NCBI GenBank assembly: GCA_028283725.1
Contig: JAPWKC010000004.1
Coordinates: 1,054,001 to 1,118,000, forward strand
Length of the DNA stretch: 64,000 nt
Origin: Neorhizobium sp.
GTDB taxonomy: Bacteria > Pseudomonadota > Alphaproteobacteria > Rhizobiales > Rhizobiaceae
Reading direction: 5' to 3'
Part shown: piece after piece, positions 35,926-63,306 of the stretch
Layout of the letters: each line of letters starts with the position of its first letter
Numbering within the stretch: position 1 is the stretch's first letter
Made by a program: the position numbers and the translations under genes
The notes under the pieces: model-generated
What the model was told of the DNA's origin: nothing
Seen by the model: the letters and a program-made list of their open reading frames with translations, nothing else
The model's database searches: none

Positions 35926-35953
35926 ACTCTATCGGTTGGGTCGTCTTAGTCAA
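35926..35953 (-). promoter_or_regulatory. Promoter candidate of the sulfate importer operon
   Basis: Minus-strand TTGACT (35953-35948) and TAGAGT (35931-35926) are 16 bases apart, 26 bases before the sbp ATG. The -10 is imperfect. A CysB- or Rrf2-type control is expected but no clear operator was found. Confidence 0.35.
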
Positions 35954-36130
35954 TCTGGGGCGAAAAGAAGGCAAAACTGTTTCCCTTTGCCGCGTTTGCG
36001 CGACAAAGAATGGGTCGCGTCACGGATGGACGGCAGAACGGGCGGTTTGGGAAAAGCCGGATTGGCGGAATGGGGATTTGGCGGGAGATCGGCTGAATAG
36101 CCTTCCATCACGATGTTTGGCGGCGTCATT

Positions 36131-45707: not shown

Positions 45708-48428
45708 ATGGAAAAACATCTACTCCGCTATATCTGGAACCATACGCGTCCGCAGCAGATCTGGGTCCTGGCCGTCGTGCTGGCGTCGATGATCCCGTAC
45801 TTCCTGGCGTTCGACCTGCCGAAGCAGATCATCAACGGCCCGATCCAGGGCGGCGGTTTCGATACGCCCGATGCGCGGCAGGCCTTTCTCGACTTCGATT
45901 ACACGGTGCCGCTTTTCGGCTGGCATTTCCAGTTCGACGGTTTCGAACTCAACCGCATGGCGATGCTGATGGCGCTTTCCGGCGTCTTCCTGCTGCTCGT
46001 CATCGTCAACGGCCTCTTCAAGTTCTATATCAACGTCTACAAGGGCCGGCTCGGCGAACGCCTGCTGCGCCGCATCCGCTATGAGCTGGTCGACCGTCTT
46101 CTGCGCTTTCCGCCCAACACGATGCGGCAGATCCGTGCGGCGGAAGTCTCCAGCATGGTCAAGGACGAGGTGGAACCGTTCGGCGGCTTCACCGGGGATG
46201 CCTTCGTGCAACCGGCGCTGCTGGGCGGGCAGGCTGCCGCGGCGCTGTTCTTCATCTTTCTGCAGAATGCCTGGCTCGGCATGATCGCCGGTGTGATGGT
46301 GGCGATCCAGGTGGGCGTTATTCCGAAGATGCGCCGCCGGCTGATCGAACTCGGCCGGCAGAGGCAGATCACCGCCCGGCACCTCGCCGGCAAGGTCGGC
46401 GAGATCGTCGAGGGCATGGAGACGATCCATGCCTATGACACGTCCAATTACGAGCGGGCCGACATTTCGGAGAGGCTCGGGCAGATCTTCAAGATCCGTT
46501 ACGACCTCTATCGCTGGAAGTTCATCGTCAAGTTCATCAACAATTTTCTCTCGCAGCTGACACCGTTCCTGTTCTACTCGATCGGCGGCTATCTGGCGCT
46601 GCGCGGCACGCTGGACGTCGGGCAGCTGGTGGCCGTCATCAACGCCTACAAGGACCTGCCCGGCCCGCTCAAGGAACTGATCGACTGGGATCAGGCACGA
46701 CAGGACGTGCAGGTTAAATACGAGCAGGTGCGCGAACAGTTCGAGCCGCTGCAGCTGATCGATCCGAAACTCCAGACCCTGACCCCCTCCGTTCCCGAGC
46801 ATACGCCGACGCCTCTGGCGGCCTTCAACGTGATGATCGCCGACGGCAGCGGTGCGCATCTGACGGAAAACGTCACGCTCAAGGTGGAGCGCGGCGAAAC
46901 GCTTGCGATGATCGACAATGTCGGCACCGGCGCCGAGGCCATGGCGCAGGCCTTCGGCCGGGTGGTCTGGCCCTCGGCCGGCCGCGTGACGATGGGTGAC
47001 GTGGATCTTCTCGAACTGCCGGAAGCCGTGACCGGCCGCGAAATCACCTATGCGTCCTCCGACAGCTATTTCTTCCACGGCACGCTGAAGGACAACCTTC
47101 TCTACGGCCTCAAGCACGCGCCGCGCAGCACCACGCCCGACGAGGAAACGCCGGAACAGATGCAGCGCTGGGCAAAGGAAGAAGCCGACCTTGCCGGCAA
47201 CCATATGCACTTTCCCGATGCCGACTGGATCGACCGGCGTTCAACCTCCGTCTTCCACGGCGCCGACGACGATGTGAGGCAATCCGTCCTGCGGGCGCTC
47301 GAAGCCGTGCAACTGACAACCGACGTGATGGAGCTTGCGCTGCATTCCTTCGTCGAGCCCACCGACAATCCGTCACTGACGGAGCGCATCGTCGAGATGC
47401 GGTTTGCGTTGAGGAACGAACTCAGCCGCTCCGGCCTTGGCAATCTCGTCGCGCATTTCGATTTCAGCGCCTACAACAAGGAAGCGACCGTGCGGGAAAA
47501 TCTCCTGTTCGGCGCGATCCGGCCGGCAACGGCATCCGACGACGATCTGGAAGAGGGCGAATATGTTTTCGAGGTTCTGAAGACCGCACAGCTCTTCGAC
47601 CTGCTTTTCGACATGGGCCTGACGATCGCCGAAAACGTGGTGGAAATCTTCGCCGGCCTGCCGCCGGAACATCCCCTCTTCCAGCAGCTCGAACACCTGA
47701 CGGCCGACGATATCGACTTCTACCAGCATTTCATGAAACGCCGCCGCAACCCGTCCAATTCCGCCCCGACGGACGAGGAGCAGCGCGAGATCGTCAAGCT
47801 CAGCCTGTTCTACATCGAGCCGCGCTACCGTTTCGGCGTCCTGTCGAGCGACATCATGCGACAGATCGTCGCTGCAAGGGACATTTTCTACACCAACCTG
47901 CCGGCCAACCTGCGCGACCGCGTGGAACGCTATGATCCGCATCGCTACATGGGAGCCGCCACGCTGCGCGAGAACATCCTGTTCGGCAAGCTCTCCCACC
48001 GCAATGCCGAAGCCCCCGCCAAGATCCGCACGGTTGCTGCCAAATTGTTGAGAGAAATGGACCTTTACGGGCCTGTTATGGGGCTTGGACTGGATTATGA
48101 CGTCGGCGCCAGCGGCCGCAGGCTGACGCTCGTACAGCGCCACAAGCTGAGCCTGGCACGGGCTCTGATCCGCCGCTCCAACTATTACGTGTTCAACAAG
48201 CCGCTTCCGGGGCTCGATCGGCGCGTACAGGAGGAGATTGTAAAGAACGTCCTGAATTTCCTTCAGGAACAGGATAATAATCCATCCGTCATATGGGTTT
48301 TGTCGAATACGTCTTTGTCACGTTTGTTTCATCGGGTTATCGTATTTGACCGCGGGCAAGTGGTCGAAGATGGCACATACGAGACACTTGACACGAACAG
48401 TGGTATATTCAGATCATTGGTAGCATGA
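45708..48428 (+). CDS. ABC exporter-like membrane protein with a degenerate nucleotide-binding region
   Basis: A 906-residue protein. Residues 1-330 are an ABC exporter membrane domain (HLLRYIWNHTRPQQIWVL, LGERLLRRIRYELVDRLLRFP, EGMETIHAYDTSNYERADIS). The following region should be the ATPase, but Walker A reads DNVGTGAEAM (about residues 403-412) with no Lys; Walker B is YYVFNKPL; the signature area is GASGRRLTLVQRHKLSLARAL (about 800-820). The Q-loop-following motif occurs three times: GTLKDNLLYG (458), ATVRENLLFG (593), ATLRENILFG (751). ATP hydrolysis by the usual mechanism is unlikely. The last 70 codons are clearly more AT-rich. The next gene, a cyclic-nucleotide-binding protein, starts 10 bases later. 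Confidence 0.8.
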   Translation: MEKHLLRYIWNHTRPQQIWVLAVVLASMIPYFLAFDLPKQIINGPIQGGGFDTPDARQAFLDFDYTVPLFGWHFQFDGFELNRMAMLMALSGVFLLLVIVNGLFKFYINVYKGRLGERLLRRIRYELVDRLLRFPPNTMRQIRAAEVSSMVKDEVEPFGGFTGDAFVQPALLGGQAAAALFFIFLQNAWLGMIAGVMVAIQVGVIPKMRRRLIELGRQRQITARHLAGKVGEIVEGMETIHAYDTSNYERADISERLGQIFKIRYDLYRWKFIVKFINNFLSQLTPFLFYSIGGYLALRGTLDVGQLVAVINAYKDLPGPLKELIDWDQARQDVQVKYEQVREQFEPLQLIDPKLQTLTPSVPEHTPTPLAAFNVMIADGSGAHLTENVTLKVERGETLAMIDNVGTGAEAMAQAFGRVVWPSAGRVTMGDVDLLELPEAVTGREITYASSDSYFFHGTLKDNLLYGLKHAPRSTTPDEETPEQMQRWAKEEADLAGNHMHFPDADWIDRRSTSVFHGADDDVRQSVLRALEAVQLTTDVMELALHSFVEPTDNPSLTERIVEMRFALRNELSRSGLGNLVAHFDFSAYNKEATVRENLLFGAIRPATASDDDLEEGEYVFEVLKTAQLFDLLFDMGLTIAENVVEIFAGLPPEHPLFQQLEHLTADDIDFYQHFMKRRRNPSNSAPTDEEQREIVKLSLFYIEPRYRFGVLSSDIMRQIVAARDIFYTNLPANLRDRVERYDPHRYMGAATLRENILFGKLSHRNAEAPAKIRTVAAKLLREMDLYGPVMGLGLDYDVGASGRRLTLVQRHKLSLARALIRRSNYYVFNKPLPGLDRRVQEEIVKNVLNFLQEQDNNPSVIWVLSNTSLSRLFHRVIVFDRGQVVEDGTYETLDTNSGIFRSLVA

Positions 48429-48438
48429 TATCGTAGAT

Positions 48439-48930
48439 ATGACTGCCAATCACGTGAACGAACGAATGGTGCATGCTATGCTGCTCAACGATGAAGTTCA
48501 GTTGTTACGCAAGGTCCCCTATTTCTGCAGGGTGGACCCGTGCAAGCTAAAGCTGCTCGCCTTCACGTCGGATCGCGTATGCTACGAACCGGGGCAGGTT
48601 CTGTTCTCTCAGGGAGATAGCAGCGATGCTGCCTATGTCATCCTGCGGGGCAGCGTCGATCTCCTCACACAATCTGCTGGTGAAGAGCTTAAGGTGGGCG
48701 ACGCCGGATGCAACTCAATCATCGGTGAGATGTGCGTGTTGTCCAATTCGCTCCAGGCCGTCACGGCGCGTGCCAGCACCGATGTCGAGGTGCTGCGCAT
48801 CGACAAGGACGCTTTCTTCAAGGTGATTGCCGACAATCCGCGCATCAGCATGGAGATCAGCCGTACATTGGCCGAAAACCTGCGTGGCTCGCGCTACGAG
48901 GGCAAAACCCGCCAGAACCAGCACGCGTGA
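48439..48930 (+). CDS. Cyclic nucleotide-binding domain protein
   Basis: A 163-residue single-domain protein. The cNMP-binding beta-barrel runs from about residue 25 to 140: LAFTSDRVCYEPGQVLFSQGD, AAYVILRGSVDLL, the phosphate-binding cassette IGEMCVLSNSLQAVTARA. In the classical cassette the segment is GE-x-A-L...R-A-x-S; here the Arg and Glu are present but the pattern is loose. There is no DNA-binding domain, so it is not a CRP-type regulator. Position suggests it is a regulatory partner of the ABC-like protein. Start choice among ATGs at 48439, 48466 and 48478 is uncertain because no ribosome site is clear. Confidence 0.82.
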   Translation: MTANHVNERMVHAMLLNDEVQLLRKVPYFCRVDPCKLKLLAFTSDRVCYEPGQVLFSQGDSSDAAYVILRGSVDLLTQSAGEELKVGDAGCNSIIGEMCVLSNSLQAVTARASTDVEVLRIDKDAFFKVIADNPRISMEISRTLAENLRGSRYEGKTRQNQHA

Positions 48931-49281: not shown

Positions 49282-49764
49282 TCACGCTTTCTTGTAATAG
49301 AAGTAGCGGCCTTCCTCGACGGTCGGCAGGCGCGCAAGCTCGTTCAGTTCCGGATGGACGAGCGGCAGGCCGCTCACCGCATACGATCCCGACGCCAGCA
49401 TTCCGGCAACGAGCTGCGGCAGCCAGGTAAGCGTGACGGCATCCTTTTCCGGATAGCCGGTTCCGATATCGGCATGCACGAGGGCAGCACCCGTTCCGAC
49501 ATAGCCGGGACCGGTGTCCTTGATCTCGCCGAGCACGATATCGTCCTCCGTCGGCGCTTCGGTCTTGTGGGCGCCCATGTGGCGGTCGAAGGCGAGGATG
49601 CGGCGGTCGCCGAAGAGCTGGCGCAGGTGGCTGTAGGTGCGGCCGTTGCCAAGGCCGACCTCGTAGACCTCACCGGTGGCGGGCATGCCGAGAACCTCGT
49701 TGATATGGTTCAGAATGTCCCGCTGTGCGGTCATACGGCTGATGAAGCTGTCCAGTCTGCTCAT
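49282..49764 (-). CDS. SAM-dependent methyltransferase-like protein
   Basis: A 160-residue small class I methyltransferase-like protein. The SAM-binding motif I is YEVGLGNGRTYSHL (about residues 34-47), followed by ILAFDRHMGAH at strand 2. The region after it is short and lacks a clear motif IV, so the enzyme may be minimal or inactive. The substrate is not known. A good GAGGAGAG ribosome site lies before the ATG. It is transcribed with the sugar dehydrogenase upstream (56 bases apart). Confidence 0.7.
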   Translation of the reverse strand: MSRLDSFISRMTAQRDILNHINEVLGMPATGEVYEVGLGNGRTYSHLRQLFGDRRILAFDRHMGAHKTEAPTEDDIVLGEIKDTGPGYVGTGAALVHADIGTGYPEKDAVTLTWLPQLVAGMLASGSYAVSGLPLVHPELNELARLPTVEEGRYFYYKKA

Positions 49765-49819: not shown

Positions 49820-51163
49820 TCAGGCCTTCACGACGTTGTCCGCGGCAATGCCGGAGCGGGCAAAGACATTGCGGGTATCGACAACCAGGGGCAGACGCGT
49901 GGCGATCGCCCCATAATCCACGGCATCGTGATCGGTGGCGACCACGGCCGCGTCGAAACCTTCCAGCGATTGCGGATCGATGGCGACCGAGCGGCGGCCC
50001 TTCAGATGGCCGTATTCGCGGGTGCGCGGGATCTCGGCAAGATAGGGATCGTGGTAACAGACATCGGCGCCGCGCTCGATCAGCAGTTCCATCAGCCGAA
50101 GCGACGGGCTTTCGCGGATATCGGGCACGTTTTTCTTGTAGGCGAGGCCGAGAAGCAGGATCTTCGAGCGGCTGAGCGCCTTGCCGTGCGAACGGTCGAG
50201 GGCTTCGGCCAGACGATCCACCACATGGCGCGGCATGGCCGTGTTGATCTCGCCGGCCAGTTCGATGAACCGCGTCGGCAGATCGAATTCCCGCGACTTC
50301 CAGGTGAGGTAGAACGGGTCGATCGGGATGCAGTGACCGCCGAGGCCGGGGCCCGGATAGAAGGGCATGTAGCCGAAGGGTTTCGTCTTGGCCGCGTCGA
50401 TCACTTCCCAGATATCGATGCCCATGCGCTCGTAAACGAGCTTCAATTCGTTGACGAGGGCGATGTTGACGGCACGGAAGACGTTTTCCGTCAGCTTCAC
50501 CGCTTCCGCCGTGCGGGTGCCGGAGACCGGAACCACGGTCTTCACCACCGCGCCATAAAAGGCCGAGACCATGGCGGAGGCCGCCTCGCCGTCACCGGCG
50601 ACCACTTTGGGAATGGTCGATGTCTCGAAATCGCGATTGCCGGGGTCTTCGCGCTCCGGCGAGTAGCCGAGGAAGAAATCGCGCCCGGCGACGAGGCCAC
50701 CCTCTTCGAGGATCGGCTTCATGATTTCCTCGGTCGTGCCGGGCCAGGTCGTCGATTCCAGCACGATCAGCTGGCCGGGACGCAATGTCCTTGCAATCTG
50801 CCGGCAGGTATTGGCGACATAGCTTAGATCCGGTTCGCGATGGCGGGTGAGCGGCGTCGGCACGCAGATGGCGATGATATCGCATTCGCCGAGCCGTGAA
50901 AAATCGCTGGTGGCGGAAAACCGTCCCGCGCCGGTTTCGGCGCGCAGCACCGCTTCGGGCACGGCCTCGATATAGCTGCGGCCGGCCTCGATGGCGATCA
51001 TCTTGTCCGGATCAATGTCGAAGCCGATAGCGGTGAAACCGGCGCGTGCGACCGTCATGGCAAGCGGCAGGCCGACATAGCCAAGGCCGATGATCCCGAC
51101 CTTCGAGCGCCTTGCCTGGATGGCCGACAGAAGCTCTGCCGCCGTTACCTCATGTTCGTTCAA
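49820..51163 (-). CDS. Nucleotide-sugar dehydrogenase (UDP-N-acetylglucosamine 6-dehydrogenase type, WbpA-like)
   Basis: A 447-residue NAD-dependent dehydrogenase. The Rossmann motif is GIIGLGYVGLPLAMTVARAG, catalytic Cys in PGPGLGGHCIPIDPFY, and the C-terminal UDP-binding domain has LLLGLAYKKNVPDIRESPS. It should make UDP-uronic acids such as UDP-GlcNAcA, building blocks of acidic surface polysaccharides. The start is TTG at 51163, with GGAG upstream; no in-frame ATG lies near. Divergent from the glycosyltransferase at 51460. Confidence 0.87.
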   Translation of the reverse strand: MNEHEVTAAELLSAIQARRSKVGIIGLGYVGLPLAMTVARAGFTAIGFDIDPDKMIAIEAGRSYIEAVPEAVLRAETGAGRFSATSDFSRLGECDIIAICVPTPLTRHREPDLSYVANTCRQIARTLRPGQLIVLESTTWPGTTEEIMKPILEEGGLVAGRDFFLGYSPEREDPGNRDFETSTIPKVVAGDGEAASAMVSAFYGAVVKTVVPVSGTRTAEAVKLTENVFRAVNIALVNELKLVYERMGIDIWEVIDAAKTKPFGYMPFYPGPGLGGHCIPIDPFYLTWKSREFDLPTRFIELAGEINTAMPRHVVDRLAEALDRSHGKALSRSKILLLGLAYKKNVPDIRESPSLRLMELLIERGADVCYHDPYLAEIPRTREYGHLKGRRSVAIDPQSLEGFDAAVVATDHDAVDYGAIATRLPLVVDTRNVFARSGIAADNVVKA

Positions 51164-51459
51164 GGGAAATCGCTCCGGTCTTCGTCATATCATCGGGTAA
51201 AATTCGAGGCTCCGCTCGCGGCGCAGCAGACGGGCAAAAGCCATCCGGCAGGCCGAAACGGAGCCCTTCAGGTGGGCTCATTGACGGACCCTGTCAAGTC
51301 GAAGCATGGCCAAGGCCGGGCTTGAACGCGGTTGCAGGCGAGTGGCAGAATGGCGACCACTGGTATGCCGCTCAAGCTTCGGTGATCACAGGCGCAAATT
51401 TCAACGAAGAGGCATGCGGCATGTTGCAAACAGGCGCCCGGATGCGGCATCACGCAGCT
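51164..51459. other. Divergent promoter region of the sugar genes
   Basis: A 296-base gap between a minus-strand nucleotide-sugar dehydrogenase and a plus-strand glycosyltransferase. No clear operator or RNA was found; GAAGAGG near 51404-51410 could serve an upstream ATG at 51421. Confidence 0.4.
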
Positions 51460-52554
51460 ATGAACATCGCTTTCTACGCGCCGCTGAAGTCCCCCGACCA
51501 TCCCGTGCCCTCCGGCGACCGGCTGATGGCACGCCAGTTGATGGCCGCGCTGGAGCTTGCGGGACACGATGTGGACCTCGTTTCGACCTTTCGTGCCTTT
51601 CTCCCGTCATCGGACATGGATGACGGCCCGCGCGCGAGCAATGCAGAGCAGGACGTCGAGCGGATCGCCGGCCTATGGAAGGCATCCGGCCGGCCGGATG
51701 CCTTCCTCTGCTATCACCCCTATTACAAGGCGCCGGATCTGATCGGTCCCGCGCTCTGCCGCCGCTTCGACATTCCCTATGTCACCATCGAGACCTCCTA
51801 TTCGCATCGCCGCAATATCGGACGATGGGAGGACGCACAGCGCCATGTGCTCGACGGGGCGCGGCTTGCCGCTGCCAATATCTGCATCACCGGCCGTGAC
51901 CATGACGGTTTGAAGGAGGCGGCACCGCAGGTGCGGCTTGCCCGGCTTTTCCCGTTCATCGATGCGGCGCCTTATCTGGCGCTTACGCCTAAACCGGAAG
52001 AGGGCCGTCTGATCACGGTGGCGATGATGCGGCCGGGCGACAAGCTTTCCAGTTACCGGGCCCTTGCCGCAGCACTTGGGCTGATCCGCACACATGACTG
52101 GCGGCTTTCGTTGATCGGCGACGGGCCGGCACGACCCGAGGTGGAGACGGCTTTCGCCGAGGCCGGCATTGCCGACCGGATCGACTTTCTGGGAGAGAAG
52201 ACCGCAGACGAGATCGCCCGTCTTCTGTCGTGCAGCTCGATCTATCTGTGGCCCGGCCATGGCGAGGCCTATGGGCTTGCCTATCTCGAGGCGCAGGCGG
52301 CAGGGCTGCCGGTGATCGCCGAGGCGGTGGCCGGCGTTTCCGAAGCCGTCGTCGACGGGAAAACCGGGATGCTGACCGCGCCGGGCGATATTGCGGCCTA
52401 TGCCGATGCGATCATCGCGCTGACCGGCGACGATAATCGCCGTCTCAAACTCTCGCGAAACGCACGGCAGATGATCGCCGATCGCCGCTCGATCGGCGCT
52501 GCCGCCATCGCGCTCGACCGGATTCTGAAAACCGCCACGGGGAACCGGACATGA
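51460..52554 (+). CDS. GT4-type glycosyltransferase
   Basis: A 364-residue GT-B fold enzyme. The N-terminal domain starts MNIAFYAPLKSPDHPVPSGDRLMARQL. The C-terminal domain has the GT4 pieces FLGEKTADEIARLLS and the EX7E motif region HGEAYGLAYLEAQAAGLPVIAEAVAGVSEAV. It transfers sugar from a nucleotide donor to a surface-glycan acceptor. Starts at 51421 and 51442 are possible; 51460 begins the conserved part. The stop overlaps the deacetylase start by four bases. Confidence 0.86.
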   Translation: MNIAFYAPLKSPDHPVPSGDRLMARQLMAALELAGHDVDLVSTFRAFLPSSDMDDGPRASNAEQDVERIAGLWKASGRPDAFLCYHPYYKAPDLIGPALCRRFDIPYVTIETSYSHRRNIGRWEDAQRHVLDGARLAAANICITGRDHDGLKEAAPQVRLARLFPFIDAAPYLALTPKPEEGRLITVAMMRPGDKLSSYRALAAALGLIRTHDWRLSLIGDGPARPEVETAFAEAGIADRIDFLGEKTADEIARLLSCSSIYLWPGHGEAYGLAYLEAQAAGLPVIAEAVAGVSEAVVDGKTGMLTAPGDIAAYADAIIALTGDDNRRLKLSRNARQMIADRRSIGAAAIALDRILKTATGNRT

Positions 52555-53312
52555 CGCCAGACCAATTCATCGCCATTCTCGATGCCGAAGCCGAGTCGGG
52601 CCGCAGCGTGCGCTTCTGGCTGCGCGACGACGACGCCATCGAGCCGACCCCTGCCCTCACGCGTCTGACGGACCTCGCCGGGCAATCTTCAGTGCCGATC
52701 ACGCTTGCCGTCATTCCGCGCGATACCGGCGCAGCGCTTGCCACTTTTCTCGACGAGCGCGCCCAAGACTGTCCCGGCATCAGCATTGCCGTGCATGGCT
52801 GGTCGCATCAGAACCATGCGGGCTGGGTCGAGAAGAGCCAGGAGCTTGGCGCACATCGGCCGATCAGGCAGGTGACGGACGAACTGCGCGAGGGTTTCGT
52901 CAAGCTGCGCGCATTGCATCCGACGCGGTTCGTACCGATGCTGGTGCCACCGTGGAACCGGATCGCCACGTCGGTGGTCAAGGAATTGGCGGCGCTCGGC
53001 TTTACGGCGCTTTCGACCTTCGGGCCGGAAGCGACGGCGCCGATCGCCATGCTCAACACCCATGTCGATATCATCGACTGGCGCGGCACGCGCGGCGGCC
53101 GGCCGGTCGGCACCCTTCTGTCGGAAACGGCCCAGCGGATCGCCTCGACACGGGGCGTGAGCGAAGCGACCGTCGGCATTCTCACGCATCATCTCGTGCA
53201 TGACGCTGCCGCCTGGGATTTCCTCGATCGGCTTTTCGCACTGACGTCCGGGCATCCGGGCGCCACATGGGTCGGAAAAGACAACAAGATGGCCGGATCG
53301 GCATCGTTCTAA
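52551..53312 (+). CDS. Polysaccharide deacetylase-like (CE4) protein
   Basis: A 253-residue protein of the NodB-like fold. The motif DDDAIEP (metal and base Asp), HGWSHQNH (metal histidines), PPWNR and a late HH pair (LTHHLVHD) are visible, so an active N-deacetylase is expected. Substrates would be GlcNAc-type residues in a glycan. No signal peptide, so it acts in the cytoplasm, perhaps on a lipid-linked intermediate. Coupled to the glycosyltransferase by an ATGA overlap. Confidence 0.85.
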   Translation: MTPDQFIAILDAEAESGRSVRFWLRDDDAIEPTPALTRLTDLAGQSSVPITLAVIPRDTGAALATFLDERAQDCPGISIAVHGWSHQNHAGWVEKSQELGAHRPIRQVTDELREGFVKLRALHPTRFVPMLVPPWNRIATSVVKELAALGFTALSTFGPEATAPIAMLNTHVDIIDWRGTRGGRPVGTLLSETAQRIASTRGVSEATVGILTHHLVHDAAAWDFLDRLFALTSGHPGATWVGKDNKMAGSASF

Positions 53313-54326: not shown

Positions 54327-54621
54327 GATCTCGGCCTTTCGACGGGTGCCTGCAACAGCGATGCCGGGTGGCGCGCAGCCCGCACGATGCGGATCTGCCG
54401 AATGCCACCCATCAAGCTGTTGCCGGGCAGTTTCATACAAGACAACCACTGGTAAGCTTTGTTTATTACCGGCCGGATGGAACCATCGGCGCGGGCGGCT
54501 GTTTGCCTCCAATTGCTACACGTGTTCGTCATAGACAGGCAATAAGGCGTGGGCTACGGTGCCGATATGCAAGGCCTTGTCTGGCCTCGAATTTCATAGG
54601 CAAGTGCTGGAAAGAATGCGA
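54327..54621. other. Divergent promoter region between GT32 and the ABC importer
   Basis: A 295-base gap. GGTAA and TTACC flank GCTTTGTTTA near 54454-54472, a loose operator candidate. No gene or RNA is visible. Confidence 0.4.
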
Positions 54622-56553
54622 ATGAACGAGCGTGACGAGTTGCTCCACATCGAAGGACTGAATGTCTCCTTCCCTGTGATGGGCGGCGCAATTCACGCCG
54701 TGAAGGATTTCAGCATGCGGCTGCGACCCGGCAAGGTCACGGCGCTCGTCGGTGAATCCGGTTCGGGAAAGTCGGCGCTCGGTCGTGCCATCATGGGCAT
54801 CGAGACGGATACCGCACGGATTTCCGGCAAGGCGATCTTCAAGGATCCGGCGATGGGGTCGCCCGATGGGCAACCGGTCGATCTGATCGCGCTGCCGCGC
54901 GACGGACGCCAGATCCGCGGCATTCGCGGCAAGCGGATCGGGATGATCTTCCAGGAGCCGATGACCTCGTTCTCGCCGCTCCACACGATCGGCAACCAGA
55001 TCGAGGAAAACCTCAAGATCCATACCTTGAAAAGCCCTAGGGAACGGCGCGAGGCGAGCGAGGAAATGCTTGGTCTCGTCGGGTTCGACAATCCGGGCCG
55101 TGTGTTCGACATGTATCCTTTCGAGCTTTCAGGCGGCATGCGGCAGCGTGCGATGATCGCCATGGCGCTGATCTGCCGGCCGGCGCTGCTGATCGCCGAC
55201 GAGCCGACGACGGCGCTCGACGTCACCATCCAGGCGCAGATCCTCAAGCTCCTGCAGGAATTGCAGTCGCAGCTCAACATGGCCATGCTCCTGATCACCC
55301 ACGATCTCGGCGTCGTCGCCAGCATGGCCGACGAGGTGGTGGTGATCTATCGCGGCGAAGTGATGGAGGCGGGAACCGCCGACGATATTTTCCGCAATCC
55401 GCAACATCCCTATACGAAGGGCCTGATGGCCGCCGTGCCGGATTTCGACCGGCCGCGCAGCGAACGTCTGAAGCCGTTGCGCGAAATCAGCGTCGATACG
55501 GCCGGACTGATGGCAGGGCGGGCGAAGGCGGAAAGCATCGCCGCACAGCCGGCCAAGGAGCCGGTGAAGCGGTCGGATATCCTTCTGTCGATCAACCATG
55601 TGACGAAATCGTTTGCCGCCAAGCGCGAGATCGGCTTCGGCCTGAAACCCGTCGCCCGCGCGATCGCGGTCAATGACGTGTCCTTCGATATCCGCCGCGG
55701 CGAGACGCTCGGTCTCGTCGGTGAAAGCGGCTGCGGCAAGACCACGCTGTCGAAGATCCTGATGCGCGGGCTGACGGCCGATAGTGGCGCCGTCGTCTAC
55801 GAAGGCGACAGCGGCCCTATCGATGTGCTTCAGGCCGAAGGCGAGGAACTGCAAAACCTCAGAACCAAGATCCAGATGGTGTTTCAGGACCCGGTCTCGT
55901 CGCTGTCGCCGCGCATGACGGTGAGCAATATCGTACGCGAGCCGCTGGACATCCATGGCCGCGGCGACATGAAGAAGCGGCAGGCGATCGTGCGCAAGCT
56001 GCTTCATGCGGTCGGCATGCCCGAGCACGCGCTGATGCGCTACCCGCACAGCTTTTCCGGCGGCCAGCGGCAGCGTATCGGCATCGCCCGCTCGCTGGCG
56101 CTTGGGCCGGATCTTCTGATCTGCGACGAGCCGGTCTCGGCGCTCGACGTGTCGATCCAGGCGCAGATCCTCAATCTGATGAAGGACCTGAAGGACGAAC
56201 TTGGGCTCACCTACCTGTTCATCTCGCACAATCTCGCCGTCATCAACTACATGGCCGACAGGGTAGCGGTGATGTATGCCGGACGGATCGTCGAGATGGG
56301 TCCCTGCGAGACGATCATGCGCGCGCCCGTTCACCCCTATACGAAGCGGCTTCTGGCCGCCGTGCCGCTTCCAAGCCTCGACCACAAGCTCGATTTCGCC
56401 GCAGCCGGTGAATCCAGCGCCAAGGTGAAGAAGGTCTGGGGCAAGCAGTTCCTCGATGAAGGCGATACCGCCAATCTGGCGCATGTCGATCTTGGCGGCG
56501 GCCATGTGGTGCTTGCCAGACACAATGTCGATGCACGGGAGCTCGTCCCATGA
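54622..56553 (+). CDS. Dual-ATPase subunit of a peptide-type ABC importer
   Basis: A 643-residue fusion of two OppD/DppD-OppF/DppF-like ATPases. The first: Walker A GESGSGKS, signature LSGGMRQRAMIAMAL, Walker B LLIADEPTTALDV. The second: GESGCGKTT, FSGGQRQRIGIARSLAL, LLICDEPVSALDV. Each ends in the oligopeptide-transporter C-terminal tail (YTKGLMAAVP, YTKRLLAAVP). It powers the two permeases downstream. The ATG at 54622 has GGAAAG at 7 bases. Stop overlaps the next start. Confidence 0.92.
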   Translation: MNERDELLHIEGLNVSFPVMGGAIHAVKDFSMRLRPGKVTALVGESGSGKSALGRAIMGIETDTARISGKAIFKDPAMGSPDGQPVDLIALPRDGRQIRGIRGKRIGMIFQEPMTSFSPLHTIGNQIEENLKIHTLKSPRERREASEEMLGLVGFDNPGRVFDMYPFELSGGMRQRAMIAMALICRPALLIADEPTTALDVTIQAQILKLLQELQSQLNMAMLLITHDLGVVASMADEVVVIYRGEVMEAGTADDIFRNPQHPYTKGLMAAVPDFDRPRSERLKPLREISVDTAGLMAGRAKAESIAAQPAKEPVKRSDILLSINHVTKSFAAKREIGFGLKPVARAIAVNDVSFDIRRGETLGLVGESGCGKTTLSKILMRGLTADSGAVVYEGDSGPIDVLQAEGEELQNLRTKIQMVFQDPVSSLSPRMTVSNIVREPLDIHGRGDMKKRQAIVRKLLHAVGMPEHALMRYPHSFSGGQRQRIGIARSLALGPDLLICDEPVSALDVSIQAQILNLMKDLKDELGLTYLFISHNLAVINYMADRVAVMYAGRIVEMGPCETIMRAPVHPYTKRLLAAVPLPSLDHKLDFAAAGESSAKVKKVWGKQFLDEGDTANLAHVDLGGGHVVLARHNVDARELVP

Positions 56554-58502
56554 GCAATCAGCCGAAGACGAGCGGACCGATGATCACCCGACGCCATACG
56601 CTGGCGCTTCTTGCCGCAACCGCCGCAGCGCCCCGCCTCGCCTTTGGCGCTGCGGCATCGCCGATGAGTTTTTCGGAATCGCCCTATGTGGCGAAGATCG
56701 AAGGCGAAAAGCCTTTGCCGCCGGTCTCCGAGCGTCTGCCGAAGACACCGCGCGTGCTCAACCTCTCCGGTATGGGCCGCGAGGCCGGCACGTTCGGCGG
56801 CGATATCAGGATGATGATCGGCGGCCAGCGCGACATCCGCTATATCCCGATCTTCTGCTACAACCGGCTCGTCTCCTATAACGACCAGTTCAAGCTGGAA
56901 GCCGATATTCTCGAAAGCTTCGAGGTGGAGAACGAACGGGTCTTCACCTTCCGCATCCGCGAAGGGCACAAGTGGTCGGACGGCACGCCGTTCACCTCTG
57001 AAGACTTCCGCTATGTCTGGCAGGACGTGTTCCACGAGAAGAAGCTGGCGCGCGGCGGCCCGCCGGCGACGCTTCTGATCAACGGCAAGGCACCGAAATT
57101 CGAAGTCGTCGATGAATTGACCGTACGCTACAGCTGGGATGATCCGAACCCGGATTTCCTCGCCGATCTCGCCTCGCCCTCGCCGACGCGCATCTGGTTT
57201 CCGGCGCAATATCTCAAGCAGTTCCACGCCCGCTACCAGACCGAGGAAATGCTGGCGCAATATATCAAGAAGTACCGGGTTCAGGACTGGGGCGCGCTGC
57301 ATCAGTTCATGTCGCGCACCGTGCGGCCCGAGAACCCCAGCCTGCCGACGCTCGATGCCTGGCGCAACCGCACCGCACCGCCGGCCGAGCAGTTCGTCTT
57401 CGAGCGCAATCCCTATTATCACCGGGTCGATGAGAAAGGGCAGCAGCTTCCCTATGTCGACCGGGTGATCCTCGGCATCAGTTCGGCCGATCTCATTCCC
57501 GCCAAGACCGGCACCGGCGAGGCCGACCTTCAAGTCACCAATCTCGACTTTGCCGACTACACATTTCTGAAAAGTGCCGAAAAGCGCTATCCGATCAATG
57601 TCGATCTGTGGAAGCAGATCCAGGGGTCGCGTATCGCGCTTGTGCCCAATCTCAACTGCAAGGACGAGGGCTGGCGCAAGGTGGTGCAGGACGTGCGCTT
57701 CCGCCGGGCGCTGTCGCTTGCGATCGACCGCACCGAGATCAACAAGGCGGTATTCTACGGCCTTGCCAAGGAGAGCGCGAATACGGTTCTGCCCGACAGC
57801 CCGCTGTTCAAGCCCGAATATCGCGATGCCTGGGCGATCCGCGACGTGGGGGCGGCAAACTCGCTTCTCGATGCCGCAGGCCTTCTCATGGACGACGAGA
57901 CGGGCTTCCGTACCCTGCCGGACGGGCGGCCGCTGACCATCGTCGTGGAAAGCGCCGGCGACAACAGTTTCCAGGCCGACGTGCTGGAACTGGTGACCGA
58001 CCATTTCCGCGATATCGGCGTGAAGATCTTCACCCATGTCACCGACAAGGAGCTGATGCGCCGGCGGCTGAAGGGCGGCGACACCGTCATGGCCGTGTGG
58101 AACGGTCTCGACAACGGCGTGCCGACCGCCGACATGTCACCGAAGGAGCTGGCGCCAACCAGCGACGACCAGCTGCAATGGCCCGTCTGGGGCCTGCATG
58201 CCATGTCCGTCGGCACCGACGGCCATCCGCCCGACCTGCCGGAAGCTATCGCGCTTCTGAAGATGATGCATGAATGGCGCGACGCGATCGACGCCGATGC
58301 ACGGACCGAAATCTGGCACCGGATGCTGTCGCTGTTCACCGACCAGGTGTTCACGATTGGCATCGTCAATTCGGCGCTGCAACCGGTCGTGCGGGCGCGA
58401 CGCCTGAAGAACGTGCCGGAGAAGGCGCTCTACGGCTTCGATCCGACATCCTATCTCGGCGTCTATATGCCGGACACGTTCTGGTTCGAAGGGGGCGCCT
58501 GA
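56550..58502 (+). CDS. Tat-exported ABC importer substrate-binding protein (SBP_bac_5)
   Basis: A 650-residue solute-binding protein. A twin-arginine-like signal (ITRRHTLALLAATAA) precedes the mature part. The family core is FRIREGHKWSDGTPFTSEDFRYVWQDV and VRFRRALSLAIDRTEINKAVFYG. At 650 residues it is longer than usual oligopeptide-binding proteins (about 540). Ligand unknown: peptide, glycoside or opine-like. The start ATG overlaps the upstream stop. Confidence 0.88.
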   Translation: MSNQPKTSGPMITRRHTLALLAATAAAPRLAFGAAASPMSFSESPYVAKIEGEKPLPPVSERLPKTPRVLNLSGMGREAGTFGGDIRMMIGGQRDIRYIPIFCYNRLVSYNDQFKLEADILESFEVENERVFTFRIREGHKWSDGTPFTSEDFRYVWQDVFHEKKLARGGPPATLLINGKAPKFEVVDELTVRYSWDDPNPDFLADLASPSPTRIWFPAQYLKQFHARYQTEEMLAQYIKKYRVQDWGALHQFMSRTVRPENPSLPTLDAWRNRTAPPAEQFVFERNPYYHRVDEKGQQLPYVDRVILGISSADLIPAKTGTGEADLQVTNLDFADYTFLKSAEKRYPINVDLWKQIQGSRIALVPNLNCKDEGWRKVVQDVRFRRALSLAIDRTEINKAVFYGLAKESANTVLPDSPLFKPEYRDAWAIRDVGAANSLLDAAGLLMDDETGFRTLPDGRPLTIVVESAGDNSFQADVLELVTDHFRDIGVKIFTHVTDKELMRRRLKGGDTVMAVWNGLDNGVPTADMSPKELAPTSDDQLQWPVWGLHAMSVGTDGHPPDLPEAIALLKMMHEWRDAIDADARTEIWHRMLSLFTDQVFTIGIVNSALQPVVRARRLKNVPEKALYGFDPTSYLGVYMPDTFWFEGGA

Positions 58503-58503
58503 G

Positions 58504-59502
58504 ATGCTGCGCTACATCCTGTGGCGGATCATGATGATGATCCCGACGCTGATCCTGATCTCGATGCTGGTGTTCACCATCATCAACCTGCCGCCCGGCG
58601 ACTATTTCGAAAGCTATGTGGAGCAGCTGCGCGCCATCGGCGAAAAGGCCGACCTGGCCGAAATCGCCGAACTGCGCGCCCGCTACGGCTTCGACCAACC
58701 CGAACCGGTGCGCTACCTGCACTGGGTGCTCGGCATGCTGCATGGCGATTTCGGCTATTCGTTCGAATATCGTCTGCCGGTCTCGGCGGTCGTCGGCGAC
58801 CGCATCTGGCTCACCATCCTCGTGTCCGTGATCACCATCATCGTCACCTGGGTCATCGCGTTTCCGATCGGCGTCTATTCGGCCACGCATCAGTATAGCT
58901 GGGGTGATTACGGACTGACGCTGCTCGGCCTGCTCGGCGTCGCCGTGCCGAATTTCGTGCTGGCTCTGATCCTGATGTATTTCGCCAATATCTGGTTCGG
59001 GATCTCGATCGGCCATATCATGGATCCGCAATTCCTGTCGGAGCCGATGAGCTGGGCGAAGACGAAATCGATCCTCGAACATATCTGGATCCCGGTCATC
59101 ATCATCGGCACTGCGGGCACCGCCGGCATGGTGCGGCGCCTGCGCGCCAACCTGCTCGACGAATTGCACAAGCAATATGTGATGACGGCGCGCGCCAAGG
59201 GTCTGCACCCGTTCAAGGTGCTGGTCAAATATCCGCTCAGAATGTCGCTCAACTTCTTCATTTCCGATATCGGTTCGATCCTGCCGGCCGTCATTTCCGG
59301 GGCAGAGATCACGGCCGTCGTCCTGTCGCTCGAAACGACCGGGCCGATGCTGATCCGGGCATTGCAGAGCCAGGACATGTATCTCGCCGGCTCGTTCCTG
59401 ATGTTCCTGAGCTTTCTCACCGTGATCGGCGTGCTGATCTCCGATATCGCACTTGCCATGTTCGATCCGCGCATCAGATTGCGCGGCGGGAGAACGAAAT
59501 GA
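58504..59502 (+). CDS. ABC importer permease, OppB/DppB type
   Basis: A 332-residue inner-membrane permease with six helices. It begins LRYILWRIMMMIPTLILISMLVF; the coupling region is QYVMTARAKGLHPFKVLVKYPLRMSLN, followed by PAVISGAEI. It pairs with the next permease. The start is one base after the substrate-binding protein stop. Confidence 0.9.
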   Translation: MLRYILWRIMMMIPTLILISMLVFTIINLPPGDYFESYVEQLRAIGEKADLAEIAELRARYGFDQPEPVRYLHWVLGMLHGDFGYSFEYRLPVSAVVGDRIWLTILVSVITIIVTWVIAFPIGVYSATHQYSWGDYGLTLLGLLGVAVPNFVLALILMYFANIWFGISIGHIMDPQFLSEPMSWAKTKSILEHIWIPVIIIGTAGTAGMVRRLRANLLDELHKQYVMTARAKGLHPFKVLVKYPLRMSLNFFISDIGSILPAVISGAEITAVVLSLETTGPMLIRALQSQDMYLAGSFLMFLSFLTVIGVLISDIALAMFDPRIRLRGGRTK

Positions 59503-60674
59503 CCGCTGTCACCACCCGCGATCCGGATGCGCTCGCGCATTTCGTCCATCAGGGCGCTTTCGACCCCTATGCGGCGGAAGCCGGCATTGGCGGCTCCTCG
59601 GCGATCAACGAGGCGTCGCAACTGAAACTGATGTGGATCCGCTTCAAGCGCCACAAGCTGGCACTGATTTCCGGCATCCTGATCATTCTCACCTATATCG
59701 CCATTCTCTTCGTCGAGTTCCTGGCACCCTATACGGTGCATACGCGCAACGTCGATTCCATCTATTCGCCGCCGCAGCAGGTCCACCTGTTCGATCAGGG
59801 CAAGTTCGTCGGGCCGTTCGTCTACGGCCAGAAGATGGAACTGGACATGACGACGCTGCGCCGCGTCTATACCGACGATACGAACGACGTGCAGAAGCTG
59901 CGCTTCTTCTGCCAGGGCAGACCCTATCATTTCTGGGGCATGATCGAGGGCAGCACGCATCTCGTCTGCCCGGCCGAGGGCGGACACATGTATCTGCTCG
60001 GCACCGACCGGCTCGGCCGCGACGTGCTTTCGCGCATCATCTACGGCGCACGCATTTCGATGACGATCGGCCTTCTCGGGGTGACGACCAGCTTCATCCT
60101 CGGCATCGTCATCGGCGGCATTGCCGGCTATTGGGGCGGCTGGTTCGATCTCGTCGTGCAGCGCGTCATCGAGGTCCTGCATTCGATCCCGCATATTCCG
60201 CTGTGGCTGGCGCTTGCCGCCGTGATGCCGGCGGACTGGAGCCCGCTGCTCATCTATCTCGGCATCATCTTCATTCTCGGGCTTCTCGACTGGACGAACC
60301 TGGCGCGCGCCGTGCGTTCCAAACTTTTGTCCTTGCGTGAAGAGGACTATGTGCTGGCCGCGCAGCTGATGGGTGCCGGCAGCACCCGCATCATCGGTCG
60401 TCACCTCATTCCGGGCTTCATGTCGCACCTTATCGCCAGCGCGACCCTGACGATCCCCGGCATGATCCTCGGAGAGACGACCTTGAGCTTCCTCGGGCTT
60501 GGCCTTCGCCCGCCGATCACGAGCTGGGGCGTGCTGCTCACGGAAGCGCGAGGTGTGAGTATCATCGCGCTTTATCCATGGCTGCTGTTGCCGGTGGTCC
60601 CCGTTATTTTCGTCATCCTCGCCTTCAATTTTCTCGGCGACGGTCTTAGAGATGCAGCAGATCCTTACAAGTAA
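59499..60674 (+). CDS. ABC importer permease, OppC/DppC type, with a large extracytoplasmic insert
   Basis: A 391-residue permease. The N-terminal OppC segment and first helix (LALISGILIILTYIAILFVEF) are followed by about 100 residues facing the periplasm before the usual GTDRLGRDVLSRIIYGARISM; the coupling motif is DYVLAAQLMGAGSTRIIGRHLIPGF. The insert (about residues 75-170) is longer than in DppC and may contact the long binding protein. It overlaps the previous gene by four bases. Confidence 0.9.
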   Translation: MTAVTTRDPDALAHFVHQGAFDPYAAEAGIGGSSAINEASQLKLMWIRFKRHKLALISGILIILTYIAILFVEFLAPYTVHTRNVDSIYSPPQQVHLFDQGKFVGPFVYGQKMELDMTTLRRVYTDDTNDVQKLRFFCQGRPYHFWGMIEGSTHLVCPAEGGHMYLLGTDRLGRDVLSRIIYGARISMTIGLLGVTTSFILGIVIGGIAGYWGGWFDLVVQRVIEVLHSIPHIPLWLALAAVMPADWSPLLIYLGIIFILGLLDWTNLARAVRSKLLSLREEDYVLAAQLMGAGSTRIIGRHLIPGFMSHLIASATLTIPGMILGETTLSFLGLGLRPPITSWGVLLTEARGVSIIALYPWLLLPVVPVIFVILAFNFLGDGLRDAADPYK

Positions 60675-60769
60675 GGTCAGCGGGTCGCATGGATCGCCGT
60701 GGCCTTTCTCCGCGACAGCCGCGGATAGACCTGTCTGAGAAGGCGTTAGAATTTTTGGAGAAAGAGGGC

Positions 60770-62023
60770 ATGTCGCGACACCTTGGGAACGCCCGCATCC
60801 TGATGTACAGCCATGACACGTTCGGGCTCGGCCATTTGCGCCGCTGTCGCACGATCGCGCATTCGCTCGTCGAAAACTACCGCGGCCTCAACGTGCTGAT
60901 CATTTCCGGCGCGACGATCGCCGGTGCCTTCGACTACAGAGCGCGCGTCGATTTCGTGAAGATCCCGAGCGTGATCAAGCTGCGCAACGGCGAATACACG
61001 TCGATGGACCAGCATATCGACCTGCAGGAAACGATGAAGATGCGCCAATCGATCATCCGCCACACGGCGGAGACGTTCGAGCCCGACATCTTCATCATCG
61101 ACAAGGAACCGCTTGGGCTGCGCGGCGAGGTGGAAGAGACGCTCACCTACCTCAAGACGCACGGCACGACGCTGGTGCTCGGCCTGCGCGACGTGATGGA
61201 CGCCCCTCACCTGCTCGAAGCGGAATGGCAGCGTCACGATACGCTCGGCAAGATCGAGCAGTTCTACGACGATATCTGGATCTACGGCCCACCGGATTTC
61301 TACGACCCGCTGACCGGCCTCGACGTGTCGGCCAAGGTGCGCTCCAAGATGCGGTTCGTCGGCTTCCTGCAGCGCAAGATTTCCGGCGATGCGCAAGCCC
61401 AGGCACAAGCACACGCGCAGGCTCAGGCTTCGGCCAATGCACCGGCCGGCGCCGGTGACGGGTCCGACTACCTGCTGGTGACGACCGGCGGCGGTGGCGA
61501 CGGCGCCAGCCTCGTGGAGGACGTCATCAACGCCTACAAGGCCGACCCGACCCTGACGGCCAAGGCGATGATCGTGCTCGGCCCCTATATGCCCGGCGAG
61601 CAGCGCGCCGCCTTTACCGAGGCCTGCAAGGAAGTGCCGCAGCTCGACGTCATCGAATTCGACAACCGCATGGAAGACCGTATCGCCGGCGCCAAGGCGG
61701 TGATCGCCATGGGCGGCTACAATACCTATTGCGAGATCCTGTCCTTCGACAAGCCGGCTTTGATCGTGCCGCGCACCCAGCCGCGCGAGGAGCAATCGAT
61801 CCGGGCGCACAGGGCGGCCGAACTCGGGCTCGTGGATGTTCTGGCGGCTGAAGAAGCCTGCGACAGCCTCAAATTCGCCGCAGCGATCAAGGCACTTCTG
61901 ACACGTGATCCGCCATCGGTCAGCGCGCCCGGCATGCATCTCGAGGGGTTGACGAACATCACGCAGATCGTAGACGAGTGGCTGCAGCATAAAGGCCACC
62001 AGCTTACCGTGGCCAAGGCTTGA
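60770..62023 (+). CDS. MurG-like glycosyltransferase (COG4671 type)
   Basis: A 417-residue GT-B-like protein. The N-terminus ARILMYSHDTFGLGHLRRCRTIAHSL and the C-terminal donor domain (LLVTTGGGGDGASLVED, then AMGGYNTYCEILSFDKPALIVPRTQPREEQ) match COG4671 predicted glycosyltransferases. An Ala/Gln/His-rich low-complexity insert (about residues 207-224) separates the halves. The ATG at 60770 has GAGGGC nearby; the ATG at 60689 would add 27 residues with rare AT-rich codons and is less likely. It begins 95 bases after the importer operon on the same strand. Confidence 0.82.
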   Translation: MSRHLGNARILMYSHDTFGLGHLRRCRTIAHSLVENYRGLNVLIISGATIAGAFDYRARVDFVKIPSVIKLRNGEYTSMDQHIDLQETMKMRQSIIRHTAETFEPDIFIIDKEPLGLRGEVEETLTYLKTHGTTLVLGLRDVMDAPHLLEAEWQRHDTLGKIEQFYDDIWIYGPPDFYDPLTGLDVSAKVRSKMRFVGFLQRKISGDAQAQAQAHAQAQASANAPAGAGDGSDYLLVTTGGGGDGASLVEDVINAYKADPTLTAKAMIVLGPYMPGEQRAAFTEACKEVPQLDVIEFDNRMEDRIAGAKAVIAMGGYNTYCEILSFDKPALIVPRTQPREEQSIRAHRAAELGLVDVLAAEEACDSLKFAAAIKALLTRDPPSVSAPGMHLEGLTNITQIVDEWLQHKGHQLTVAKA

Positions 62024-62052
62024 AAGCAGGAACAGGTCCGGCCGGAATGACC

Positions 62053-63306
62053 ATGAAGAAGATACTGGTGCTTTTGAAGGGCTATCCGAGGCTTTCGGAA
62101 ACCTTCATCGCACAGGAATTGCTGGGGCTCGAGCGCGCCGGCTTCGAGCTGGAACTGGTCGCCATGCGCCGGCCGACCGACAAGAAGCGCCACCCCGTGC
62201 ATGACGAGATCAAGGCGCCGGTGCGCTATCTGCCGGAATATCTGCATCAGGAGCCGATCCGCGTCATCAAGGCGCTGATTTCAACCTCGCGCCTGCCGGG
62301 CTTCAAACGCGCCATTCAGGCGCTTGCCGAGGACTTCAAGCGTGATCGCTCGCGCAACCGCCTGCGGCGCTTCGGACAGGCTGCCGTGCTGGTGGCCGAA
62401 TGGCCCCGCGATGCCGGATGGCTGCATGTGCATTTCATCCACACACCGGCGGCCGTCGCCCGCTATGCCAGCCAGATCGGCTGCATGCCATGGACCGTTT
62501 CGGCGCATGCCAAGGATATCTGGACGTCCGAGGCCTGGGATCTCACGGACAAGCTTTCCGAGGCCCGCTGGGCCGTGACCTGTACCCGCGCCGGCTATGA
62601 GCGGCTGTCGTCATTGTCCGACCGGAAGAATGTGCATTTGAGCTATCACGGGCTCGATCTCGACCGGTTCCCGCCCTTCCTGCAGGACCGGCCACCGCGC
62701 GACGGTTCTGATGGTACCGATCCGATCCGCATCGTCAGCGTCGGCCGGGCCGTGAAGAAGAAGGGCTATGACGTGCTGCTGGCGGCACTTGCCCGCCTGC
62801 CCAAAGACATAGCCTGGACCTTTACCCATATCGGCGGCGGCGACGAGCTGAAGGGCTTGAAGGCGCAGGCCGAGACACTCGGCATTGCCGGCCGGATGAC
62901 CTGGAAGGGCGCGCTCGACCAGCGCGAGGTGCTCGAACATTACCGCACCAGCGATCTCTTTGCGCTTGCCTGCCGGATTACCGCCGATGGCGACCGGGAC
63001 GGGCTGCCCAACGTGCTGGTGGAGGCATCCAGCCAGGCATTGCCGATCGTCTCCACCGATATTTCCGGCATCGGCGAATTGTTCCGCAACGAGGAGAACG
63101 GCCTGCTCGTCGCGCCCGACAGTATCGACGCGCTCGCGGCAGCCCTTGAAAAGGCAATCCGCAACCCCGCCTTCCGCCGCAGGCTCGGCAAGACCGCCGA
63201 GCAAAAGGTGCGCACCCAGTTCGACTATCACAGCAGCATTGCCGATCTTGAGCGGCTGTTCGGCCAGAGCTTCGCCGAGCACGATGAAGAGGCCCGCAAT
63301 GTCTGA
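62053..63306 (+). CDS. GT4-type glycosyltransferase
   Basis: A 417-residue GT4 enzyme. The N-terminal domain begins MKKILVLLKGYPRLSETFIAQELLGLERAGF, the pattern seen in colanic-acid-type glycosyltransferases. The donor domain has ISVGRAVKKKGYDVLLAAL in similar form and DGDRDGLPNVLVEASSQALPIVSTDISGIGELF. It presumably extends the same glycan as its neighbours. The ATG at 62053 was chosen; 62047 and a TTG at 62020 are alternatives. The stop overlaps the next start by eight bases. Confidence 0.86.
   Translation: MKKILVLLKGYPRLSETFIAQELLGLERAGFELELVAMRRPTDKKRHPVHDEIKAPVRYLPEYLHQEPIRVIKALISTSRLPGFKRAIQALAEDFKRDRSRNRLRRFGQAAVLVAEWPRDAGWLHVHFIHTPAAVARYASQIGCMPWTVSAHAKDIWTSEAWDLTDKLSEARWAVTCTRAGYERLSSLSDRKNVHLSYHGLDLDRFPPFLQDRPPRDGSDGTDPIRIVSVGRAVKKKGYDVLLAALARLPKDIAWTFTHIGGGDELKGLKAQAETLGIAGRMTWKGALDQREVLEHYRTSDLFALACRITADGDRDGLPNVLVEASSQALPIVSTDISGIGELFRNEENGLLVAPDSIDALAAALEKAIRNPAFRRRLGKTAEQKVRTQFDYHSSIADLERLFGQSFAEHDEEARNV

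Follow-up and report, generated by a model that had tools for sequence, protein, structure and literature searches.

The DNA analyzed here is a window of 64,000 nucleotides from the genome of Neorhizobium sp. (assembly GCA_028283725.1, contig JAPWKC010000004.1, positions 1,054,001 to 1,118,000), and our subject is a gene within it that encodes an exporter-like protein with a degenerate ATP-binding cassette (ABC), here denoted the pseudo-ABC exporter, together with the family of its homologs. The gene is a stop-free open frame by translation (45708..48428; this and the other features described below lie on the plus strand unless stated otherwise) and encodes 906 amino acids (aa), of which residues 1-345 (45708..46742) form an exporter-type membrane domain, as delineated by the Pfam ABC_membrane match and by conservation. 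Ten bases downstream lies a gene for a 163-aa protein with a cyclic-nucleotide-binding domain (48439..48930; Pfam cNMP_binding, E 2.8e-19, 69.3 bits against a cut-off of 27.5), hereafter the sensor.

The membrane domain is that of a type IV ABC exporter, with a match to ABC_membrane (PF00664) at residues 87-311 (E 1.3e-20, 74.7 bits, cut-off 28), and its core (residues 76-340) is the most conserved section of the protein. NCBIfam exporter models align to the window protein in two blocks, approximately residues 78-470 and 750-905. Residues 230-262 (46395..46493, located by sequence alignment) belong to an intracellular loop that we take to hold coupling helix 2, on the basis of the alignment to ABCB4 and of general exporter anatomy. 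All 16 family members compared have this loop at full length, and in all nine of the cassette-less relatives compared (see below) it is shorter by 2-11 residues, which argues that the dead cassette of the family remains docked on the membrane domain. Conserved acidic residues, given here as sequence positions only, are E117, E146, E154, E156, E232, E323 and D333.

In the cassette, the catalytic residues are gone. The Pfam ABC_tran model scores 23 bits on the window protein, under its cut-off of 25, that is, the protein does not qualify as an ATPase by this model. As placed by alignment, the Walker A position (VGTGAEAM, residues 405-412; 46920..46943) has A409 for the Lys and E410 for the Ser/Thr; the Walker B position (YYVFNKPLPGLD, residues 826-837; 48183..48218) reads YYVFNKP, with N830 and K831 replacing Asp-Glu and the LD of the D-loop retained beside it; and the H-loop position (VIWVLSNTSL, residues 861-870; 48288..48317) has S866-N867 and no His. 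The signature region is GASGRRLTLVQRHKLSLAR (residues 800-818; 48105..48161). An earlier note on this DNA, written from the sequence alone, had described a normal exporter membrane domain, a Walker A without Lys and a Walker B without the Asp-Glu pair, and all three descriptions are borne out.

The same losses extend across the family. Among the proteins of 179 loci, some of which are one gene fetched from two collections, eight were identical to others and were removed, leaving 171 distinct homologs in which five catalytic letters were scored (Walker A Lys, Walker A Ser/Thr, Walker B Asp, Walker B Glu and H-loop His). None of the five is kept in 115 homologs, one in 20, two in 22, three in 9, four in 5, and all five in no homolog. 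To judge from these residues, ATP hydrolysis has very likely been lost, and the proposal of the earlier note that the protein is a pseudo-ATPase is thus well supported family-wide. Because the replacement letters are themselves conserved, with Glu or Asp at the Walker A Ser/Thr position in 154 of the 171 homologs and the Walker B Asp changed to Asn in 139, we infer that the nucleotide pocket holds a new, selected set of contacts and is not a product of drift. Alternatively, the cassette could bind ATP without hydrolyzing it and act as a sensor of the ATP level or an ATP-gated switch, a notion favored by the 41 homologs that retain the Walker A Lys and the five that keep four of the five letters. 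Given that the window protein has other residues in place of Lys, Ser/Thr, Asp, Glu and His and that two-thirds of the homologs (115 of 171) have no catalytic letter left, we regard it as quite improbable for the family.

The cassette is also unusually long, with 561 residues beyond residue 345. In a profile of 76 family members (alignment A2, from which three of 79 chosen rows, L075, L128 and L166, were omitted) aligned to solved exporters, positions 350-472 and 765-889 map to adjoining parts of ABCB4, 384-508 and 502-628, respectively. Because both pieces fall on adjoining parts of one canonical cassette, the region is a single cassette interrupted right after the Q-loop by approximately 270 residues. 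The first cassette half, up to the first Q-loop motif, spans residues 371-470 (46818..47117, by alignment to canonical exporters) and the insert spans residues 471-738 (47118..47921, by alignment and by Pfam and PDB searches). The oversized post-membrane part pointed out in the earlier note is therefore real in length, but it is not a doubled cassette. Two complete cassettes can be ruled out, because Walker A, the signature and Walker B are each matched a single time in the alignment. The insert region (473-741) has no known Pfam domain up to E 1, and its comparison with PDB sequences up to E 10 returned a sole match at E 0.97.

What has been multiplied is the Q-loop/helical segment, which is present three times. 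The protein has the motif.T.[RK][ED]N[LI]L[FY]G starting at residues 458, 593 and 751, the three sites listed in the earlier note; 20,000 shuffles of its sequence did not yield it once. The copies, found by motif match, are GTLKDNLLYG (residues 458-467; 47079..47108), ATVRENLLFG (593-602) and ATLRENILFG (751-760); the second and third lie within repeats delimited by profile comparison, repeat 2 at approximately residues 555-650 (47370..47657) and repeat 3 at approximately 712-798 (47841..48101), the second half of repeat 3 being the helical segment proper to the cassette. The earlier note assumed a single motif per ABC ATPase; among 14 orthologs of a canonical exporter, 13 have one occurrence of a looser form of the motif and the 14th, the window genome's own, has none. 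The Asn of motifs 1, 2 and 3 is retained in 169, 170 and 170 of the 171 homologs, respectively. In profile comparisons, piece 574-735 matches piece 732-826 at 98.4% (E 6.6e-15), and piece 440-576 matches these two at approximately 93% each (E 3.5e-7 and 2.6e-7), compared with at most 0.3% in six comparisons of repeat pieces with two membrane-domain pieces and at most 4.8% in five further comparisons involving a membrane-domain piece. The stretches that precede motif copies 2 and 3 also resemble each other (98.3%, E 1.9e-14). A signature-like copy in front of these two motifs, suspected by eye, was not supported (probability 0.3% and 1.3%). Accordingly, internal duplication, as suggested in the earlier note, holds for the Q-loop/helical segment but not for Walker A, the signature and Walker B, of which there is one each.

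The distribution of conservation along the protein was compared with that in a canonical exporter, using 14 genomes that hold both a family protein and one canonical exporter (91 pairs; a fifteenth genome, G012, was excluded as its canonical match was partial). In the family, mean identity is 72.6% in the membrane domain, 56.8% in the N-terminal stretch (1-75), 53.7% in the cassette core and 44.3% in the insert; in the canonical exporter, it is 73.3% in the membrane domain and 74.0% in the cassette. The cassette is more conserved than the membrane domain in none of the 91 family pairs, compared with 56 of 91 in the canonical control. As far as sequence can tell, the membrane domain of the family is intact and strongly conserved. 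These values bear on the possibility that the protein is a scaffold or receptor in which the membrane domain merely anchors a cytoplasmic platform that assembles glycosyltransferases and the sensor. Such a role would account for the loss of catalysis (no homolog with all five letters), for the big added cytoplasmic part with its nearly invariant residues E492, N498, W507, H655 and R708, and for the glycosyltransferase genes next door. Nevertheless, conservation is highest in the membrane domain, where it equals that of the canonical exporter, and the cassette-less relatives survive without any such platform, so that a pure scaffold of this kind appears rather unlikely, if worth keeping in mind.

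These relatives comprise ten proteins of 314-413 residues that have the same kind of membrane domain and no cassette. A joint membrane-domain profile, searched against 398 genomes of the phylum with five candidates scored per genome, gave 45 matches at E 1e-40 or better, whose open frames fall into two size classes, 31 of at least 870 aa and 14 of less than 430 aa, with none in between. A quick tree sets 27 family members and the 10 membrane-domain-only relatives apart from 11 canonical exporters with maximal support in the Shimodaira-Hasegawa-like approximate likelihood ratio test (SH-aLRT 100), and the membrane-domain-only relatives branch outside the family with support of 98. The 27 family rows were hand-chosen for spread, and one exporter of the window's own genome (L251) is missing from the tree, having gone undetected by the Walker A pattern. 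A long N-terminal extension is present in four of nine membrane-domain-only relatives. Examples of these relatives lie at 3926-5164 in locus L206 and at 6995-8299 in both L242 and L243. On two roseobacter plasmids, membrane-domain-only relatives are found in copper operons with genes for TolC, copper oxidase, azurin-type and cytochrome c proteins, and one further relative adjoins a protein that, by eye, is multicopper-oxidase-like; none of these has a cassette gene as its immediate neighbor.

Exporter membrane domains that work without a cassette have a precedent in SbmA/BacA (SLiPT), the proton-driven peptide transporters. Pfam includes a model for this family, and it is absent from the Pfam matches of the window protein (at E 0.01) and of the proteins of L206 and L211 (at E 1). 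According to PMC13316013, SbmA has a proton-driven exporter membrane domain that lost the cassette and the coupling helices and gained TM0 helices. The membrane-domain-only relatives are similar in lacking a cassette and in having a shortened coupling loop (9 of 9) and, in four of nine, the long N-terminal extension, whereas the pseudo-ABC family still carries its dead cassette and is linked to a cyclic-nucleotide partner. It can be tentatively proposed, as a speculative extension, that the clade represents a second route to ATP-independent exporter domains, whose cassette was discarded in some members and in others, by tripling of the Q-loop/helical segment, made into a receiver for a cyclic-nucleotide subunit, yielding a cyclic-nucleotide-gated ABC-type conduit for surface glycans.

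The family is widespread in Alphaproteobacteria, the class being read from the taxonomy lines of the named matches. At E 1e-30, it was detected in 22 of 40 genomes of relatives and, within the class, in 132 of 385 genomes, G363 having a membrane-domain-only protein alone; at E 1e-20, it was detected in 33 of 398 genomes of the phylum, 31 of these within the class and the remaining two accounted for by a membrane-domain-only protein (G529) and a normal exporter (G661). The window's own genome is included in the tallies, and copy numbers per genome are lower bounds since 22 candidates per genome were scored in the set of 40 and two in each of the two larger scans. A scan of species genomes yielded at least 569 relatives, 80 of which were kept and carry names of rhizobia and their order, and 262 plasmid records match the family at E 1e-40. 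That the gene is decaying and functionless could be argued from the loss of motifs and from stops in some copies (G016:C3, G119, G249 and G723; the first of these, G016:C3:413776-416483, is a second family-gene copy interrupted by an in-frame TGA). However, with matches in 132 of 385 class genomes and a stop in only two rows, a strongly conserved membrane domain, and a gene pair conserved in 169 of 179 loci, decay is extremely improbable.

In the annotated records consulted, family members are named 'ABC transporter ATP-binding protein' or 'ABC transporter transmembrane domain-containing protein', the former label implying an activity for which the sequence gives no support. Pfam, NCBIfam and PHROGs yield general ABC matches and no family-specific name or model, and among open-licence papers searched by title and the start of the abstract none deals with this family.

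The sensor gene accompanies the pseudo-ABC gene with great regularity, adjoining it or being fused to it in 169 of the 179 loci (up to 700 bases downstream in 148, overlapping the gene end in 9, fused in 12, with L148 and L159 as examples of fusions). In one further locus, with a broken frame, the sensor is farther off, and another locus is cut by the contig end; contig ends may also conceal neighboring genes elsewhere. The sensor site, examined in 158 distinct copies, has Gly in all 158, Glu in 149 and Arg in 154, the last two presumably being the phosphate-binding motif of the cyclic-nucleotide site.

Cyclase genes were counted around 34 family loci of relatives, with the window's locus excluded and a broken copy that lies in two pieces entered as a single locus, after the loci had been split into two groups by similarity rank to the window's copy. 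Of the 18 loci in the second group, 14 (one of them a broken copy) have class III cyclase genes no more than 5 kb away, compared with 0.22 expected at random. In Mesorhizobium, a gene for a metallo-beta-lactamase (MBL)-fold hydrolase is located directly behind the sensor (L241, 12204-13058); it scores 37.5 bits against a cyclic-nucleotide phosphodiesterase model with a cut-off of 400, and ribonuclease Z models score higher. Homologs of this hydrolase are present in 33 of 180 loci searched.

Downstream of the sensor, the window carries a cluster of genes with matches to sugar-related and transport domains. These encode a recurrent methyltransferase (Methyltransf_17; 49282..49764, minus strand), a recurrent UDP-glucose/GDP-mannose dehydrogenase (49820..51163, minus strand) and a recurrent group 1 glycosyltransferase (51112..52554, the start of which may be farther downstream), all three identified by Pfam, followed by a polysaccharide-deacetylase-like protein (52551..53312), which has a weak, sub-threshold DUF2334 match and whose homologous neighbors on annotated plasmids are named polysaccharide deacetylase. 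Domain matches further identify a recurrent ABC importer of the oligopeptide type, consisting of a double ATPase, a binding protein and two permeases (54559..60674), and two glycosyltransferases, one with a GT28 C-terminal domain and one of group 1 (60689..63306), homologs of which stand upstream of the pseudo-ABC gene in many relatives. When the window's neighbor proteins were used as queries against flanks of up to 6 kb in 80 loci, homologs were found for the sensor in 79, for GT4 in 46, GT28 in 40, GT1 in 40, the permeases in 38 and 37, the deacetylase in 36, the UDP-sugar dehydrogenase in 33, the methyltransferase in 31, GT32 in 20, the importer ATPase in 19, cysD and cysN in 3 each and SBF in 1. 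Annotated plasmids of Shinella, Phyllobacterium and Mesorhizobium carry related clusters, the latter two with cyclase genes. This neighborhood points to a surface glycan or glycolipid, and that such a molecule is the cargo or partner of the pseudo-ABC exporter has, in our estimate, an even chance.

The neighborhood also bears on the idea that the protein pairs with a complete ABC exporter, its own cassette being the degenerate half of a heterodimer. Degenerate exporter halves usually retain Walker A, whereas here the substitutions affect Walker A, Walker B and the H-loop alike. None of the three annotated neighborhoods names a second exporter, with plain 'ABC transporter ATP-binding protein' entries left aside and no genome-wide partner search made, and the window's cluster has an ATPase of the importer type with permeases of its own. 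Thus, although exporters with one degenerate site are known (PMC7544095), such pairing seems unlikely.

Taken together, we lean, if only slightly, toward the view that this large alphaproteobacterial family consists of ABC-exporter-like proteins that have given up the use of ATP and provide a conduit or scaffold, linked to cyclic nucleotides, for a surface glycan. Since the ATP residues are lost and yet the protein is widely kept beside a protein resembling a cyclic AMP/GMP sensor, it probably acts as an ATP-free pore, carrier or scaffold. Of the component claims, an ATP-independent role of the membrane domain is likely; control linked to cyclic nucleotides is reasonably probable for the family at large and less likely in the window's group; and a putative conduit or carrier is somewhat preferred to a pure scaffold. 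The suggestion of the earlier note that the protein is a scaffold, channel or sensor and not a pump is plausible, and is favored by the pattern of conservation, by the existence of relatives with a membrane domain alone and by the cyclic-nucleotide-binding protein linked to the family, but an ATP-independent secondary carrier, which the note did not name, is equally open. Mechanistically, the protein would dimerize, with the membrane domains building the conduit or carrier, and the dead cassette, docked on the kept coupling loops, would be a platform on which the cyclic-nucleotide-binding subunit docks and exerts leverage. Binding of a cyclic nucleotide would then alter the state of the membrane domain via the sensor and the dead cassette, and a glycan or glycolipid synthesized by the neighboring glycosyltransferases would be the likely cargo or partner.

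Several observations weigh against this interpretation of the family as ATP-free and controlled by cyclic nucleotides. The loss of catalytic letters is not complete everywhere, as the homologs with a Walker A Lys indicate, and the ABC_tran cut-off is passed by three of five scanned homologs (L148, L159 and L178, not L150 and L154); binding of ATP without hydrolysis may be possible, above all in the five homologs that keep four letters. By tblastn, no sensor was found in eight of the 179 loci, including L154, which is a fusion by Pfam. The window sensor keeps the Glu of its site (48724-48774), but Gln at residue 106 replaces the Arg of the phosphate cassette; Gln is also found in the sensors of L009, L039 and L055, the exporters of which are among those closest to the window's (77-79%). 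Because the nucleotide site thus looks damaged, control may have been lost or replaced in the window's sub-lineage. Class III cyclase genes are found within 5 kb of none of the 16 loci of the window group (0.09 expected at random), tblastn with three cyclases finds a homolog in flanking DNA at only 17 of 80 and 6 of 40 loci, and there is no class III cyclase match in the window's genome (an assembly 78% complete). An origin of the Arg loss in the sensor from the loss of cyclases was considered and is not supported, G003 (L009, with a Gln sensor) having one cyclase match. The long branches of the canonical exporters may affect the tree, the root region of which is unsure. As to the cargo, related glycosyltransferase queries may match one another's homologs, and gene neighborhood is no proof of substrate. 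Dimerization and docking are inferred, as is the role assigned to the repeats.

Compared with known systems, the family shares its membrane domain and the order of its cassette elements with type IV ABC exporters such as MsbA and P-glycoprotein/ABCB4 (of the PDB sequences, 584 reach E 0.001 or better with the family profile, led by ABCB4 at 9.7e-81), but differs from them in the lost catalytic residues, the insert of approximately 270 residues after the Q-loop, the threefold Q-loop/helical segment and the linked cyclic-nucleotide-binding protein. Loss of catalysis at one site (TM287/288, ABCB11) or a change to a channel or regulator role (CFTR, SUR) is familiar among ABC proteins, to which the family is comparable in this respect; however, those proteins keep a working site or bind ATP, whereas no sampled family member has all five catalytic letters. 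A cyclic-nucleotide-binding domain in an exporter setting is also found in TIGR03896, a bacteriocin-type transport-associated protein family, the exporters linked to which have working cassettes; the window's sensor matches this model weakly (E 3.7e-9, 36.4 bits, far under the cut-off of 161). If the pseudo-ABC exporter is indeed ATP-independent and tied to cyclic nucleotides, it would be a natural test of the exporter fold uncoupled from ATP under second-messenger control, and would provide a lead to an unknown step in the surface-glycan biology of rhizobia and other alphaproteobacteria.

Elsewhere in the window, frames of 1030 and 754 codons (18978-22070 and 33900-36164, plus strand) have no Pfam match at E 1e-4; both overlap long frames on the opposite strand and may be spurious. 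A 960-residue protein (41100-43982, minus strand) with many hydrophobic stretches by eye matches Patatin below threshold (19.4 bits against a cut-off of 27.7). Finally, at 27977-30801, a VirJ-domain protein adjoins a phosphatidylglycerol lysyltransferase, a pair that we take to resemble AcvB/LpiA.

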